Assembly: GCF_026157085.1 (NCBI RefSeq)
Contig: NZ_JANPVN010000001.1
Span: 1,488,001-1,552,000, forward strand
Source: Sphingomicrobium arenosum
GTDB lineage: Bacteria > Pseudomonadota > Alphaproteobacteria > Sphingomonadales > Sphingomonadaceae
Direction of reading: 5' to 3'
Length of the DNA: 64,000 bases
Below are positions 28,029 to 45,686 of this stretch, in pieces. The notes below the pieces were generated by a model. The model searched no databases, had not been told where the DNA came from, and worked only from the letters and a program-made list of their open reading frames with translations. Both the position numbers and the translations under genes were made by a program. Within the stretch, counting starts at the first letter, position 1. Each line of letters starts with the position of its first letter.

Positions 28029-28088
28029 GTCGCCATCTTGCACGATTGGTCGCATCGGTGAAACGACCATCCGCAGGGGATGCAACGC

Positions 28089-28304
28089 ATGAGCGACTCG
28101 GGCGTTACCCCTTTAAGCATGTATCGCAGCCAAGCTTCGAGGACTGACACGAACGACCGGTCGCAACGCGACCGCGATCCCATTCGTGTTACGATTCCAA
28201 CACCCACCGATCCGGTGACGGCGCATTTGTGCCGTGCGTTCGACGCGGTGAAGTGCGAGCCGTTGCCCGAAGAGATGCGCCTCCTCCTTGCCAAGCTGAA
28301 TTAG
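28089..28304 (+). CDS. NepR-like anti-sigma factor (second NepR paralogue)
   Basis: 71 residues from ATG at 28089, with GGGGA 8 nt upstream. The N-terminal 40 residues are polar and probably disordered. The C-terminal 29 residues (VTAHLCRAFDAVKCEPLPEE then MRLLLAKLN) align with the two-helix core of the NepR at 30369 (LGRALKSVYDETLREDIPDD then LRDLLGKLD). Matching positions include the hydrophobic residues of helix 1, the E-P/D-I/L-P turn, and LLxKL at the end. NepR binds EcfG and PhyR, and some sphingomonads carry a second NepR. It is convergent with ecfG, its likely partner. Confidence 0.75.
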   Translation: MSDSGVTPLSMYRSQASRTDTNDRSQRDRDPIRVTIPTPTDPVTAHLCRAFDAVKCEPLPEEMRLLLAKLN

Positions 28305-28421: not shown

Positions 28422-29057
28422 TCAATTCTCGTTGGAGAGTTCGTCGACCTGGCTCATGATATTCTGCAGCGCCGACAGGTCGGGGTCGGTCTCATGCTGC
28501 TTGCGCGGCGGGAGATCCTCGCCGTTGAGAAGATTTTCCAGCGCCACGCGTCCGCGTGCCACCCGGCTCTTGATCGTGCCGACCGCGCAACCGCAGATCT
28601 GCGCCGCTTCTTCATAGGCGAAACCGCCCGCGCCGACGAGGATCAGCGCCTCGCGCTGCGGCTGCGGCAGCTGCATCAGCGCGCGCTGCATGTCGCCCAG
28701 TTCGACGTGACGGTCCTGCGCAGCGGGCGCGGCGAGGATCTTGGCCGCGGTCACATCGTCCCATTCGCCCTTGAAACGCGCGCGGCGCATCTGGCTGAGG
28801 AACAGGTTGCGCAGGATGATGAAGGTCCAGGCGCGCATGTTGGTGCCCGCCTGGAAGCGCTTGCGCGCCGCCCATGCCTTGAGGAGCGTTTCCTGAACGA
28901 GGTCATCGGCGGTATCGCGGTTGCCCGAGAGCGAGCGACCGAAGGCGCGCAGATGCGGAATGACCTGCGCGAGCTGGTCCTTGAACTCGTCGTCCGGCAG
29001 CGGCACCGGATCGGGCTTCTTCTCGCCCTCGTCCTCTGCTTTGGCCTGGTTGGTCAA
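28422..29057 (-). CDS. ecfG: ECF sigma factor EcfG, general stress response
   Basis: 211 residues. Sigma region 2 runs from about residue 35 to 95 (DTADDLVQETLLKAWAARKR, RAWTFIILRNLFLSQMRRAR). Region 4 spans about 125-185 (ALMQLPQPQREALILVGAGG then YEEAAQICGCAVGTIKSRVA). The sequence and its position beside phyR identify it as EcfG, which directs RNA polymerase to GGAAC...CGTT promoters when NepR is titrated by phosphorylated PhyR. It is downstream of phyR on the same strand, separated by 155 nt containing a long palindrome. No EcfG-type promoter is seen directly upstream of its start. Confidence 0.95.
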   Translation of the reverse strand: MTNQAKAEDEGEKKPDPVPLPDDEFKDQLAQVIPHLRAFGRSLSGNRDTADDLVQETLLKAWAARKRFQAGTNMRAWTFIILRNLFLSQMRRARFKGEWDDVTAAKILAAPAAQDRHVELGDMQRALMQLPQPQREALILVGAGGFAYEEAAQICGCAVGTIKSRVARGRVALENLLNGEDLPPRKQHETDPDLSALQNIMSQVDELSNEN

Positions 29058-29212: not shown

Positions 29213-30013
29213 TCAGGCCGGGACGGTCGCCGCGTCGAAGAACAGTGCCTGGCTGATCGCCGCCTTCACGGTCGAACGCTGGAACGGCTTGGTGATGAGG
29301 AAGGTCGGCTCGGGGCGCTCGCCGGTGAGCAGTCGCTCGGGGAAGGCAGTGATGAAGATCACCGGCACCCGGAAATCGGCGAGGATGTCCTTGACCGCGT
29401 CGATCCCTGAGGAATCATCGGCCAGCTGGATATCTGCCAGCACGAGGCTCGGGCGGTCCGACTTGGCCTGCGCCACTGCTTCATCGCGCGTGACGGCGAC
29501 GCCGGTGACATTATGGCCGAGGTCGCGCACGATCGTCTCGATATCCATCGCGATGATCGGTTCGTCCTCGATGATGAGCACGTCGGCGCGGGTCTGCTTC
29601 TCGATCTCGCTGGTTGCTTCCTTGACCAGCTTGTCGACATCTTCGGCGCTGGTGTCGATGAGATAGGCCGTATCCTCGTTGGAAAAACCCTCGAGGCTGG
29701 TCAGCAGGAGCGCCTGGCGCGACAGCGGGGTGATCTGCGACAGGCGGGCCTGTGCGATGCTCTCCGCCTCGCCGGTCTGGCGCGCCGACGGATCGGCATC
29801 ATCCTCGATGTGCGCGGTCGACCAGATGGCGTGGAAGGTGCGATAGAGCCCGAGACGCGGATCGCGATCGCGCGGGAATTCGTCGGGATTTTCGACGATC
29901 GTCTCGAGCGTGGTGCGCACGAAATTGTCGCCGTGCACCTGGCTGCCGGTCAGCGCGCGCGCATAGCGCCGCAGGAAGGGCAGATGGGGGGCGAGTTCCT
30001 GGCCGAGTGACAT
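29213..30013 (-). CDS. phyR: Response regulator PhyR, NepR anti-sigma antagonist
   Basis: 266 residues from ATG at 30013 (MSLGQELAPHLPFLRRYARA), the conserved PhyR start. A TTG 12 nt upstream is in frame but AGGAG abuts it, so ATG is preferred. Residues 1-135 are a sigma-like domain mimicking EcfG. Residues 140-266 are a receiver domain with acidic pocket IIEDEP, phospho-acceptor D194 in LADIQLADDS, and FITKPF with the conserved lysine. When phosphorylated the sigma-like domain binds NepR and releases EcfG. It is divergent from nepR-phyP and preceded by an EcfG-type promoter. Confidence 0.97.
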   Translation of the reverse strand: MSLGQELAPHLPFLRRYARALTGSQVHGDNFVRTTLETIVENPDEFPRDRDPRLGLYRTFHAIWSTAHIEDDADPSARQTGEAESIAQARLSQITPLSRQALLLTSLEGFSNEDTAYLIDTSAEDVDKLVKEATSEIEKQTRADVLIIEDEPIIAMDIETIVRDLGHNVTGVAVTRDEAVAQAKSDRPSLVLADIQLADDSSGIDAVKDILADFRVPVIFITAFPERLLTGERPEPTFLITKPFQRSTVKAAISQALFFDAATVPA

Positions 30014-30073: not shown

Positions 30074-30098
30074 AACCCCCCGTCGCCGCGTCCGTTCC
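30074..30098 (-). promoter_or_regulatory. EcfG-type promoter of phyR
   Basis: Read on the minus strand: GGAAC (30098-30094), 16 nt, GGTT (30077-30074). This differs from the GGAAC-N16-CGTT consensus only in the first -10 base. A start near 30067 would give a leader of about 55 nt to phyR. It implies positive feedback by EcfG. Confidence 0.6.
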
Positions 30099-30177: not shown

Positions 30178-30202
30178 GGAACAAAGCTGGAGGGCTTTGG
30201 TT
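30178..30202 (+). promoter_or_regulatory. EcfG-type promoter of nepR-phyP
   Basis: GGAAC (30178-30182), 16 nt, GGTT (30199-30202): the same spacing and -10 variant as the phyR promoter on the other strand. It faces nepR. Feedback control of the anti-sigma factor and phosphatase by EcfG is the expected logic. Confidence 0.6.
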
Positions 30203-30368: not shown

Positions 30369-30590
30369 ATGGCGCGAGACAATCCGCGCGAAGGGGATGA
30401 AGGCTTGAGCGGCACCGACAAGAACGCAGCTTCTGACAAGAAGAGCGAGGACACCGCCAAGCCGGCCAAGGGCGCCGCGCGCAAGGGCCGCGACGACAAT
30501 CTCGGTCGGGCGCTCAAGTCCGTCTACGACGAGACGCTGCGCGAGGACATTCCCGACGATCTGCGCGACTTGCTCGGCAAGCTGGACTGA
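30369..30590 (+). CDS. nepR: Anti-sigma factor NepR
   Basis: 73 residues from ATG at 30369, with GGGAG 9 nt upstream. A polar, lysine/alanine-rich N-terminal tail is followed by the two-helix NepR core (DDNLGRALKSVYDETLRED, then IPDDLRDLLGKLD). NepR holds EcfG inactive and is titrated by phosphorylated PhyR. It is the first gene of an operon with the PhyP-like gene, 14 nt apart, and is divergent from phyR. Family and context agree, so the call is firm. Confidence 0.93.
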   Translation: MARDNPREGDEGLSGTDKNAASDKKSEDTAKPAKGAARKGRDDNLGRALKSVYDETLREDIPDDLRDLLGKLD

Positions 30591-30604: not shown

Positions 30605-32146
30605 ATGACCGCCATCGAGCGCCTCTTCCGTTCGCTCTCCACCCCGACGAAGCTGGTCATCGCCATCGCCGTGGCGTTGCTTCCGATCGGCGCGCTGACG
30701 GTCTACACCACCTCCGCCGAACTGGCCGACACGCGCCGCGCGGTCCTCGGTGACGCCCAGGGCGAGATGCTGTCCGCGGCGCGCTCGGTCGAGACGCTGA
30801 TCGCGCGCAACGCGCTGGCGCTGCGCGTGTCGGCCTATGGCGCGCTGGCGGTGGACGAGCGCGATCCGTGCGCGGTGGCGCGCGATGCGCTGTCGGTCGC
30901 GCCGGCCGTGGCGCGGCGATTCTCGATCACCGGGGGCGATGGCGCCGTGGATTGCGGCAATCTCGACCTCGAGGGACTTGCCGAGATGGATCCCGTCGCC
31001 AACGGGCGGGTCGAACTATGGGTCGATCCGGCACGCGAGGGCCTGTTGCTGCGCGTCGGCATCCCGGGCGCGAGCGCGACCGGCATGATCACCTCGAAGG
31101 AACTGGCCGAAGCCATCGCCGCTGCGACCAGCGATGTGGACGGCTTCACCCTCGAGGACGGCAGCCGCAGCCTCGTCCTGATCGAACCCGCCGCGACCAG
31201 GCCGCCGGGGACGCGCCACGAGGAACTGTCCTTCGCGCTGGTCGATCGCAAGCTCACCGCGCTCGTCGCGTCGGATTATGTCGACATCGACGTGCGCGAC
31301 CGGCTCAACATCTTTCTGCCGGTGCTGATGTGGGCGCTCGCCGCCATCCTGTCCTGGGCGCTGGTCCACCTGCTCTTCATGAAGCCGCTCAGGCGCCTCA
31401 ACCGCGCGGTGCGCGATTATGACGTCGAGACGCATGATTTCACCCCGCCCGAAAAGCTCGGCCCCGCGCGCGAGATTCGCGAATTGGGCGAGAGCTTTTC
31501 CGCCACCGTCGCGCGGATCGAGGAGGGCGAGAAGGATCTCCTCCAGGCGATCGAGGGGCAGCGCAAATTGGTGCGCGAGGTGCATCACCGGGTGAAGAAC
31601 AACCTTCAGGTCGTCGCCAGCCTGCTCAACATCCATTCGCGCGGCGCGAGCGGCGATGAAGCGCGCGAGGCCTATGCCGGCATCGGCCGCCGCGTCGAGG
31701 CGTTGAGCGTCGTCCACCGCAACCATTTCGCCGAGATCGAGGAGAGCCGGGGCATCCAGCTGCGTCCGCTGGTGACCGAGCTCGCCGCGAGCCTGCGCGC
31801 GTCGGCCCCCAATGCGCAACTCGCCATGAACCTCGATCTCGACGGTGCGGCCACGACGCAGGACGCCGCCGTCTCGGCCGCCTTCTTCATCACCGAGGTG
31901 GTCGAATATGCGATCCTGCGCGATGCGGTCGAGGTCGAGATCTCGCTGCGCCGGACGAGCGAATTGACCGCGCGGCTGTCGGTCGCGAGCGAGGCGCTGG
32001 TCGGCGCCGGCGGGGACGAACCGCGCCATGTCCAGTTCGAGCGGATCGTCGATGGCTTGAGCCGCCAATTGCGCTCGCCGCTCGACAAAAAACTCGGTGG
32101 CTACTCGGTCGAATTGCCGGTTTTCCCGGAAGAAAATGACGCCTGA
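30605..32146 (+). CDS. phyP: PhyP-like HisKA_2 sensor protein, probable PhyR phosphatase
   Basis: 513 residues. Two transmembrane helices (about 17-35 and 235-258) bracket a periplasmic domain of about 200 residues, followed by a HAMP-like linker. A HisKA_2 dimerisation helix carries H328 in REVHHRVKNNLQVVASLLN. The ATPase part is degenerate: the N box reads ITEVVEYAILRD instead of NELxxNA, and no DxGxG loop is seen. The gene is linked to nepR. In Sphingomonas, PhyP of this layout acts as a negative regulator and phosphatase of PhyR. That function is inferred here from the lost ATP site and the locus. Confidence 0.85.
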   Translation: MTAIERLFRSLSTPTKLVIAIAVALLPIGALTVYTTSAELADTRRAVLGDAQGEMLSAARSVETLIARNALALRVSAYGALAVDERDPCAVARDALSVAPAVARRFSITGGDGAVDCGNLDLEGLAEMDPVANGRVELWVDPAREGLLLRVGIPGASATGMITSKELAEAIAAATSDVDGFTLEDGSRSLVLIEPAATRPPGTRHEELSFALVDRKLTALVASDYVDIDVRDRLNIFLPVLMWALAAILSWALVHLLFMKPLRRLNRAVRDYDVETHDFTPPEKLGPAREIRELGESFSATVARIEEGEKDLLQAIEGQRKLVREVHHRVKNNLQVVASLLNIHSRGASGDEAREAYAGIGRRVEALSVVHRNHFAEIEESRGIQLRPLVTELAASLRASAPNAQLAMNLDLDGAATTQDAAVSAAFFITEVVEYAILRDAVEVEISLRRTSELTARLSVASEALVGAGGDEPRHVQFERIVDGLSRQLRSPLDKKLGGYSVELPVFPEENDA

Positions 32147-32188
32147 TCAGGCCGTTAAATTTTATTTGAAAAAAAGTGATCCGGGACA

Positions 32189-32213
32189 GGAACCCGCCCC
32201 CACAAGGGGCGTT
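32189..32213 (+). promoter_or_regulatory. Consensus EcfG promoter of the candidate sRNA
   Basis: GGAAC (32189-32193), 16 nt, CGTT (32210-32213): an exact match to the EcfG consensus, 43 nt past the phyP stop. It predicts transcription starting near 32220. No protein gene follows on this strand, which points to an RNA product. Confidence 0.8.
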
Positions 32214-32219
32214 GTGTAC

Positions 32220-32320
32220 CATGGATAGTGACCTTTTGCCCCCCCCGCTCTCGCTATCCACTCAAGTGGGCCCGGAACCGCCAACCCTCCCCCCCCCCGG
32301 TGGCGTTTCCGGGCCCTCAT
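32220..32320 (+). ncRNA. Candidate GsrN-like stress-response small RNA with C-rich loops
   Basis: About 100 nt downstream of a perfect EcfG promoter. The 5' hairpin pairs TGGATAG (32222-32228) with CTATCCA (32254-32260) and exposes a loop with eight consecutive C (32239-32246). The 3' hairpin pairs 32268-32283 with 32301-32316 (15 bp plus one mismatch) around a loop with ten consecutive C (32289-32298). The following T tract is weak. Position beside the ecfG locus, EcfG control and unpaired C-rich loops are the features of Caulobacter GsrN, which pairs with G-rich leaders such as Shine-Dalgarno regions. No primary-sequence homology was tested. The 5' end is predicted from the promoter and the 3' end from the hairpin. 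The rest of the 329-nt gap to tatC shows nothing convincing. Confidence 0.7.
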
Positions 32321-32475
32321 TTGTCCAGCGGGGCCCTTTCCTTCCAGAACCGATGAGCGGAACCGACAGGCCGAGCAGCTTGGCCGAGCCGATACACGTG
32401 CGCCACGCGGGACGCGACGGCGCGTAACAGGCGTTGTCGGAGAGGCGTGTCGGGATGGCATCGCGGCGGCGGCGA

Positions 32476-33261
32476 TCAGGCCTCGGCGTCGGCGGTGTCC
32501 TCGTTCGCCTTGACGCCCCCTGCCCGTGCGCGGCGCCAATGGGTGAGCCGGATCGCGACCAGCGCGAATTCGTAGAGCAGGATCAGGGGTACCGCGAGGA
32601 TGATCTGGCTGACCGCATCGGGCGGGGTCAGGACGGCAGCGATGAAGAAGGCGGCGACGATCATGTAGCGCCGCCCCTTGGCCAGCTGTTCGCGCGTCAC
32701 CAGCCCGGCGCGCTCGAGGATCATCAGCAGGATCGGCAGCAGGAAGGCGACCCCGAAGCCGAACAGGAACTTGGTCGAGAAGGACAGGTAATTGCCGATG
32801 CCCGGCAGCGCCTCGGTCTCGACCCCGCCGACACTGCCCTCATAGCCCAGGAGGAAATCGAGCGCGATCGGCATGGCGACGACATAGGCGAAGCTCGCCC
32901 CCATGGCGAAGAAGAGCGGCGTCATCAGGAGGAAGGGCAGGAACGCCTTTTTCTCCTTGGCATAGAGCCCCGGCGCGACGAAGCGCCAGAGTTGCACCGC
33001 GAGCATCGGGAAGGTGATCATCAGCGCGGCGAACAGCGCCACCTTCACCTCGACGAAAAAGGCCTCGAAGATATCGGTGAAGATGAGGCGCCCCTGCCCC
33101 GCGTCGAGCAAAGGCTGGACCAGCACGGCGAAAATGGGCTTGGCGACATAGAAGCAGGCGATGAAGGCGATCCCGAGCGTCGCCACCACCCACAGAAGCC
33201 GTTTGCGCAGCTCCACGAGATGGTCGAGGAGCGGCATCTTGGTGTCGTCGATATCCTTCAC
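32476..33261 (-). CDS. tatC: Twin-arginine translocase subunit TatC
   Basis: 261 residues. Six hydrophobic helices; the N-terminal MPLLDHLVELRKRLLW and the loop FVAPGLYAKEKKAFLPF are conserved TatC features. TatC recognises twin-arginine signal peptides and forms the receptor complex with TatB for export of folded proteins. It is the last gene of the tatABC run and overlaps tatB by 4 nt. Confidence 0.98.
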   Translation of the reverse strand: MKDIDDTKMPLLDHLVELRKRLLWVVATLGIAFIACFYVAKPIFAVLVQPLLDAGQGRLIFTDIFEAFFVEVKVALFAALMITFPMLAVQLWRFVAPGLYAKEKKAFLPFLLMTPLFFAMGASFAYVVAMPIALDFLLGYEGSVGGVETEALPGIGNYLSFSTKFLFGFGVAFLLPILLMILERAGLVTREQLAKGRRYMIVAAFFIAAVLTPPDAVSQIILAVPLILLYEFALVAIRLTHWRRARAGGVKANEDTADAEA

Positions 33262-44108: not shown

Positions 44109-45623
44109 TTAGCTGTTCGACCGGTTGAGGAAGCCTGGAATGTCGAAGCTTTCCTTGCCGAAGCCCGGCTCGTCCTCGGCCTCGTCCTCGCCAGTCGCCT
44201 GGGCACCGCGCGCGATGTTGCTCATCCGCTCGAACAGCGTCCCGCCACCACCCGGCGGGGGCGTAGGTACCATTGTCTTCTTGGCCGCGCCCTTGGTCGC
44301 GAGCAGCGAAGGCATGGCGTCCACCGTTTCCTCATCCTCGGCAATCTCGTCCTCGAGCGGCGGCGCCACCGGGGGCGCGCCGACCGGGCCGGCGAGAATG
44401 TCGTCGGCTTCGAGCATCAGCGGATCATCGCCTTCGCTCTCGTCCTCGGCGACTTCCATCGCGTCGGTGAGGTCGAACGCATCGTCATCGGCGCTCGGCG
44501 CACTCGCGGAGGTCGCGGCGGTCGCATTGTCGATCGAAAAGCTCGCCTTGGGCGGGGTGACCGGCACGGCGGGCGCCGCGCCCGAACGCGCGCCGGGGAA
44601 GGTGAAGACGCTCGACGCGCTGGTCGAGGTGGTGGACGGAATGCCCTTCACATCCTCTTCGCCGTCGATGCCCGTGGCCACGACGCTGACGCGGATCTTG
44701 CCCTCGAGGTCGTCGTTGAAGGCCGAACCCCAGATGATATTGGCGTCCTCGTCGACCAGCTCCTTGATGTGGCTGGCGGCCTCGTCGACCTCCATCAGCT
44801 TCATGTCCATGCCGCCGGTGATCGAGATGATGACGCCCTTGGCGCCCTTCATGCTGACCCCGTCGAGGAGGGGATTGCTGATCGCCTTTTCGGCGGCCTC
44901 GATGGCGCGGTTCTCGCCCTCGGCCTCGCCGGTGCCCATCATCGCCTTGCCCATCTCGCTCATCACCGAACGCACGTCGGCGAAGTCGAGGTTGATGAGG
45001 CCGGGCATGACCATGAGGTCGGTGATGCCGCGCACGCCCTGCTGCAGCACCTCGTCGGCCATTTCGAAGGCCTCCTTGAAGGTGGTGTCGGGCGTGGCGA
45101 GGCGGAACAGATTCTGGTTGGGAATGACGATCAGCGTGTCGACATGCTGCTGCAGCTCGTCGATGCCGCTATCGGCACTGCGGCCGCGACGCGCACCCTC
45201 GAAGGCGAAGGGCTTGGTTACGACACCGACGGTCAGGATGCCTTTCGCGCGGGCCGCCTTGGCGATGACGGGGGCCGCGCCGGTACCGGTGCCGCCGCCC
45301 ATGCCGGCAGCGACGAAGACCATGTGGCTACCTTCGAGCGCGCGCTCGATTTCCTCGATCGTTTCTTCGGCAGCGGCACGACCGATTTCGGGACGCGAGC
45401 CGGCGCCGAGACCCTGGGTGATCTTGAGACCGAGCTGGAGACGCGTGTCGGCGGCGCTGTTGTTCAATGCCTGCGCGTCGGTGTTGGCAACGAGGAAATC
45501 GACCCCCTGCACGTCCGCCGCCATCATGTTGGCGATGGCGTTGCCACCCGCGCCGCCCACGCCGACCACGCTGATGCGCGGGCGCAGTTCGTCGACCTCT
45601 GGCCGCTGGAAATCGATGCTCAT
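44109..45623 (-). CDS. ftsZ: Cell division protein FtsZ
   Basis: 504 residues, long because of an acidic disordered linker (about residues 330-480). The GTPase signature GGGTGTG lies at 109-115, with the tubulin-like core before residue 320. The C-terminal peptide [10 protein letters not shown] binds FtsA/ZipA-type partners. It polymerises into the Z ring. It is the last gene of the dcw cluster, with its own 180-nt upstream gap rich in GANTC sites. Confidence 0.99.
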
Positions 45624-45686
45624 GCTGGGTGCCTCCCCCTTGTCTCGCCAATCGTGCGGATCGCCAACCTACTGATCCGTAGAGCG

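Follow-up and report, generated by a model that had tools for sequence, protein, structure and literature searches.

The window analysed here is a 64-kb stretch of the Sphingomicrobium arenosum genome (64,000 nucleotides, nt), and its subject is a predicted small RNA (sRNA) of about 105 nt at 32221–32326 on the plus strand, with the 5′ end placed from promoter spacing and the 3′ end from a covariance model. The host genome comprises 2.56 Mb in three contigs, and its PhyP is 84% identical to that of Sphingomicrobium astaxanthinifaciens. The RNA lies beside genes of the general stress response (GSR). Immediately upstream, on the same strand, is a gene for a PhyP-like HWE/HisKA_2 histidine kinase (30605–32146; Pfam HisKA_2 and HWE_HK), whose name rests in part on its position and which is preceded by nepR, encoding the anti-sigma factor (30369–30590, plus strand; Pfam NepR, score over the cut-off). 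On the minus strand are phyR (29213–30007; NCBIfam PhyR family) and a putative ecfG (28422–29057; Pfam sigma-70 regions 2 and 4 and PhyR_sigma2), named partly from its position and resemblance. Both phyR and nepR have their own GGAAC-N16-GGTT promoters, at 30098 on the minus strand and at 30178 on the plus strand, respectively. Downstream of the RNA and convergent to it is tatC (32476–33261, minus strand; NCBIfam and Pfam TatC). A separate open reading frame (ORF) of 74 codons at 28080–28304 on the plus strand ends in PLPEEMRLLLAKLN, which looks like a NepR-type tail by eye and had no match in Pfam or NCBIfam.

Promoter and fold of the RNA

The first-pass annotation had pointed to a GGAAC-N16-CGTT promoter shortly after phyP, and an exact match to this EcfG-type motif was found on the plus strand at 32189–32213. 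GGAAC covers 32189–32193 and CGTT 32210–32213 with a spacer of 16 nt, and GGAAC begins at base 43 past the phyP stop codon, which ends at 32146. A simple scan of 32100–32480 gave no sigma-70 promoter. The EcfG-type motif had no second exact match in the window. Because 27 of 100 shuffled 64-kb windows also held at least one exact match (mean 0.34), the motif by itself could have arisen by chance in a sequence of this length, and it is conservation, in the form of recurrence downstream of PhyP loci and covariation in the stems, that lifts the case for the RNA above chance.

The segment 32189–32330 had a fold energy of −60.5 kcal/mol (z = −5.15), and none of 200 shuffles was equally stable. Two plus-strand hairpins were predicted, hairpin 1 at 32222–32260 with C8 in its loop (32239–32246), and hairpin 2 at 32268–32316 with C10 in its loop (32289–32298), the latter a possible weak terminator. 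The C8 and C10 loops had been recognized at first inspection, and the calculated fold exposes them with mean unpaired probabilities of 0.91 and 0.99. The covariance model placed its hit at 32222–32326 of the window (genome position G000:C1:1520222-1520326).

Conservation, covariation and distribution

A blastn search with a 196-base query matched 39 of 149 genomes of the family (Sphingomonadaceae in the GTDB sense). The RNA was located downstream of PhyP at all 30 loci from the genus, the window's own included (the best 30 of 60 matching genomes, with 61 searched), and at 7 of 7 loci from named genomes, of which L003 matched in the first part only. In total 67 loci were gathered, including the window and some double fetches, and 63 were distinct. 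The covariation alignment (A2) was built from 62 distinct sequences; excluded were L003, in which the sequence beyond loop 1 passes into runs of G and C, and L009, which duplicates the window. Compensatory changes on both sides were present in 21 of the 26 base pairs, namely 4 of 9 counted pairs in hairpin 1, where 99.3% of the cells were paired, and 17 of 17 in hairpin 2, where 91.0% were paired. Over the whole alignment 93.9% of the cells were paired compared to at most 46.4% in slid controls, and 0 of 500 shuffles equalled the observed value on any of five covariation measures. RNAalifold recovered the same two helices unprompted. Of the alignment columns 22 were invariant, among them C runs in either loop and the GCTC that follows loop 1, and the letters of stem 2 drifted while the loop letters stayed constant. 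We conclude that 32221–32326 is almost certainly a real structured RNA gene, and that it represents a so far unannotated and unnamed structured RNA family. No known Rfam family matched; for the window, Rfam 15 gave no match at the gathering score, and the best sub-threshold score, 23.9 bits, fell well short of the cut-off of 52. Among the literature matches listed, no title or abstract start described the RNA, although unnamed supplementary entries in the Zymomonas and Sphingopyxis sRNA lists are possible, and a letter-string search of full texts for its sequence gave no match.

A short protein-coding gene could also occupy this position, since ORFs of 83 codons on the plus strand and of 125 and 123 codons on the minus strand overlap the RNA, and two plus-strand frames were open in 50 and 55 of the 62 homologues. 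Close relatives with identical flanks nevertheless have loop 1 C runs whose lengths are one base apart, C8 in the window and C7 in L010 and L011, a difference that would break a reading frame. On this ground and that of the covarying base pairs, a coding ORF was rejected, although open frames exist, and the coding reading has practically no probability; the earlier view that no convincing frame is present thus held. The length of the homologues modulo 3 (20, 23 and 19 of 62) is partly set by end trimming and was given no weight. Across 140 distinct RNA sequences, the C run of loop 1 was 6 or 7 long in 124.

The covariance model, R1, was used at E-values up to 0.001 with 13 candidates scored per family genome. 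It matched 116 of 298 family genomes and 41 of 96 genera, and 110 genomes and 37 of 96 genera were retained after weak hits had been dropped; the absences are soft at this depth of scoring. In this covariance search, a check of the kind that had been proposed at first inspection, the two C-loop hairpins were conserved. The hits that were fetched numbered 92, consisting of 91 family hits without a prior locus and one class-level hit, and nine were dropped that scored 38 bits or less and had no promoter (L179, L182, L183, L184, L185, L186, L187, L189 and L190). Three of these, L183, L186 and L187 from one genus, show a C-loop hairpin at the usual place next to tatC and are possibly degenerate forms of the family; TTGACA-like letters, and no EcfG-type promoter, lie upstream of them.

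The promoter is outside the covariance model and was found within 60 nt upstream of 78 of the 92 fetched hits, in most cases at 8 nt from the start of the model, compared to a chance rate of 0.7% in 60-nt segments drawn at random from these loci. Likewise, all 67 blastn-derived loci (63 distinct) carried GGAA-N-N15-18-[CTG]GTT at a near-constant distance before hairpin 1. After the weak hits were dropped the promoter was present at 83 of 83 loci (78 strict and 5 by the relaxed pattern only), but this figure is not independent because a missing promoter had guided the dropping, and 78 of 92 is the fair figure. Judged by its promoter, the RNA is very probably EcfG-dependent.

The usual gene order around the RNA was phyR / nepR-phyP-RNA / tatC. 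At the 83 retained loci, PhyP was upstream on the same strand at 49, convergent TatC was downstream at 68, and both were present at 47. A site between phyP and a convergent tatC would also suit hairpins that do no more than close the nepR-phyP operon, as well as tatC, as terminator and 3′ end, in which case a separate RNA would not exist. As a full account this was rejected in view of the promoter at a near-constant distance in 78 of 92 hits, of 13 of the 83 retained loci that were beside neither PhyP nor TatC (contig ends cut some loci), and of the conserved loop letters, which a terminator does not need. We therefore consider a terminator without a separate RNA very improbable.

Five genomes contained two R1 hits each, and in three of them both copies had a promoter (L160/L181, L124/L168 and L121/L175). 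The surroundings of tatC were inspected in 58 genomes. These came from genera in which R1 had not matched the first representative, with the addition of G063 and G108, two genomes with dropped hits, and a diverged two-C-loop RNA was present at three of the 58 loci (L193, L213 and L228); L195 was flagged by the script and not accepted by eye. These three and L286, all recognized by eye from promoter and C loops, stand outside the count of 37 genera: the genus of L193 was already counted through L177 and that of L286 was also counted, so that L213 and L228 represent two further genera. In L149, L150, L153, L156 and L188, a third C-rich stretch lies directly 3′ of hairpin 2 and could form a small hairpin (such as CCATCCCCCCCGGT). 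At E-values up to 0.01, the model matched 3 of 385 genomes in a sample of the class, which were two family members and the dropped L190. Viral contigs had no match to the exact 21-base core of the RNA.

A second C-loop RNA divergent from phyR

The 59 genomes without a retained R1 hit were searched for PhyR together with G061, and PhyR was found in 51 of the 60 at E-values up to 1e-40, with none detected in nine. The surroundings of phyR were fetched for 40 of the 51, and at 30 of these 40 loci a different RNA was present, recognized by a promoter and the loop CCCCCCTCCCGTCCAA with at most two mismatches. It was always divergent from phyR and located 139–263 nt or about 1 kb upstream. This sister RNA is exemplified by L259:5950-6046 on the plus strand, which carries the loop CCCCCCTCCCGTCCAA and a GGAAC-N16-CATT promoter and has equivalents in L255-L284 and L289-L313. 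It consists of a 5′ hairpin with the loop AGACCCCCC(C)TCCCGTCC followed by a strong terminator hairpin and a T stretch. That sister genera carry another kind of C-loop RNA could not be seen from the single sequence behind the first-pass annotation.

All 41 distinct sister sequences, picked by the exact loop core, had GGAA[CT]-N15-17-[CG][AGT]TT at a near-constant distance. Strict CGTT occurred in only 2 of the 41 and CATT in most, and this form may be a putative EcfG site as well. In 40 sequences, 93.3% of the cells were paired and 9 of 22 pairs changed on both sides, eight of them within the terminator helix and a single one within the 5′ hairpin. Of 500 shuffles, one reached the count of both-side changes and none reached the other four measures. 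Rfam gave no match for L259, L263 and L283 of the sister type or for L286, L170 and L171, diverged members of the first type.

The exact 16-base sister loop was found in 90 of the 239 family genomes searched, which represent 40 of 96 genera, compared to 1 of 239 genomes for a reversed control pattern. None of these 40 genera was among the 37 that retained the two-C-loop RNA; with the raw R1 hits the two RNAs would share three genera (g38, g49 and g70). Of the 59 genomes that retained no R1 hit, PhyR was found in 50 and not in 9; the exact loop occurred in 35 of the former and in none of the latter (Fisher p = 1e-4, with kinship not corrected for), and neither RNA was found in the nine genomes without detected PhyR. 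The remaining phyR loci included L286, with a two-C-loop RNA beside phyR, and L250-L252, whose genomes have that RNA elsewhere; at six loci (L249, L253, L254, L285, L287 and L288) neither RNA was found by the promoter and loop tests. In the same set of loci, overlapping back-to-back EcfG-type promoters were seen before nepR-ecfG (L263 at 7780 on the minus and 7803 on the plus strand, and also L256, L258, L261, L262, L265-L267 and others), a palindrome-like site that could fire in both directions.

The sister RNA may take the place of the two-C-loop RNA in the sister genera. For the Sphingomonadaceae as a whole, we propose tentatively, at somewhat short of an even chance, that the RNA arm of the stress response is one of two genus-exclusive C-loop RNAs, either the two-loop RNA beside tatC or the one-loop RNA divergent from phyR with its GGAAC-N16-CATT promoter. 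Both would be lost with PhyR, both would be broad regulators of mRNAs with G-rich leaders, and they would have become a near-obligatory part of the PhyR-NepR-EcfG system by replacement or by separate origin.

Proposed mode of action and its meaning

In the established pathway, stress frees EcfG from NepR. The freed EcfG would then transcribe the RNA from the promoter just downstream of phyP, two hairpins would form, the second of which probably ends transcription, and two C-rich loops would be exposed. Through these loops the RNA would base-pair with a number of mRNAs at G-rich leader segments, in many cases close to the Shine-Dalgarno sequence, and would alter their translation or stability. 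Overall, a conserved non-coding sRNA of the general stress response, transcribed by EcfG and pairing through its C loops with G-rich mRNA leaders, is the best explanation of the data and a probable one. A trans-acting sRNA is suggested because of the fixed promoter, the loops under selection and the likeness to Caulobacter GsrN, and we consider action through loop–mRNA pairing fairly likely.

A 2018 paper describes GsrN as an RNA of about 106 nt made under sigma-T, which activates katG when its C-rich loop pairs with a G-tract in the leader, as compensatory mutations support, and whose gene is typically near the ecfG/nepR/phyR locus, with C. crescentus itself the exception (PMC5869019). The RNA in the window shares with GsrN an EcfG/sigma-T type promoter (by the motif alone: the exact match, and 78 of 92 hits), a position near the ecfG/nepR/phyR locus, an exposed C-rich loop in the 5′ half (the C8 loop) and a size of about 100 nt (a 105-nt model hit). 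It most likely works like GsrN, the likeness being one of promoter, size, place and C loop. A point of difference is the second C run of the RNA in the window, in the loop of the 3′ hairpin. The species Erythrobacter litoralis belongs to the sphingomonad order. It served as the outgroup of the 2018 paper and had no apparent gsrN-like gene, and GsrN homologues found by BLASTn were confined to Caulobacteraceae (PMC5869019). The earlier assignment to the GsrN functional class thus stood for promoter motif, C loop, size and locus, but no credible R1 relative was found outside the family in the class sample of 385 genomes with 10 candidates scored each, and the GsrN sequence was not compared. Blocking of Shine-Dalgarno sequences differs from the proven katG effect of GsrN, which is activation through a leader G-tract (PMC5869019). 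GsrN-like RNAs of Rhizobiaceae and other groups were predicted from location, also with transcript data (PMC5869019). Those of Rhizobiaceae share with the present RNA an EcfG-type site near GSR genes and an exposed C-rich 5′ loop, and differ in the transcript data behind their prediction, the RNA in the window being known from sequence alone. Similarly, Rhodobacter CcsR1-4 and staphylococcal RsaE carry C-rich loops or motifs for which pairing with G-rich segments resembling Shine-Dalgarno sequences has been proposed; they have other promoters and structures and occur in other organisms, so the likeness is analogy only. The word GsrN does not occur in the part of an extracytoplasmic function (ECF) review covered by a term search.

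Pairing before start codons was calculated in a 344-kb genome sample with crudely called genes, at a threshold of −14 kcal/mol or better. Loop 2 paired in 26 of 302 start-codon windows compared to 14/300, 8/304 and 6/304 in controls, and loop 1 in 63 of 302 compared to 38/300, 46/304 and 50/304, a weak enrichment. We take this as a modest tendency and not as a target list. The perfect 11-base complement of loop 1 had two matches in its own genome, one being the opposite strand of the RNA and the other inside a long open frame. CCTCC, the anti-Shine-Dalgarno core, was present in the 3′ part of 77 of the 140 distinct RNA sequences. In the genus, a run of at least five G was found just before the start of ftsZ in 21 of 29 genomes (45621–45640, minus strand, in the window, and L330-L359, with L355 left out for having no ATG at the aligned start), compared to 4/43, 7/249 and 2/113 for other genes. 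The run was absent from ftsZ in all 11 other RNA-bearing genera examined and all 10 with the sister RNA, and present in 1 of 9 without PhyR. ftsZ was therefore dropped as a family-wide target and cannot explain the conservation of the RNA in the family.

Besides this result and the weak enrichment for loop 1, the reading of the RNA as a loop-pairing sRNA of the general stress response is weakened by the retained loci beside neither PhyP nor TatC and by the 3′ end in the window, where a simple scan of 32100–32480 found no classic hairpin-plus-T-run terminator and hairpin 2, although strong, is followed only by a short and weak T stretch. The RNA could instead be a real EcfG-dependent transcript that acts as a decoy, its C loops binding to a protein or to Rho, with no mRNA pairing. 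The loops are nearly pure C, Rho binds C-rich RNA, and neither the start-codon windows nor ftsZ across genera yielded a conserved mRNA target. The loops are, however, short for a Rho site. GsrN, which is similar in promoter, size and place, acts by pairing (PMC5869019), and a decoy is in our estimate unlikely.

The alphaproteobacterial general stress response is well known for its proteins, and in Caulobacter this knowledge extends to an RNA partner, GsrN. With a covariance-supported RNA family found in 37 genera, a second C-loop RNA in a further 40, and GSR genes next to most copies of either, the existence of an RNA arm in the sphingomonad stress response becomes directly testable, and two dissimilar RNAs with possibly the same function are available for comparison.
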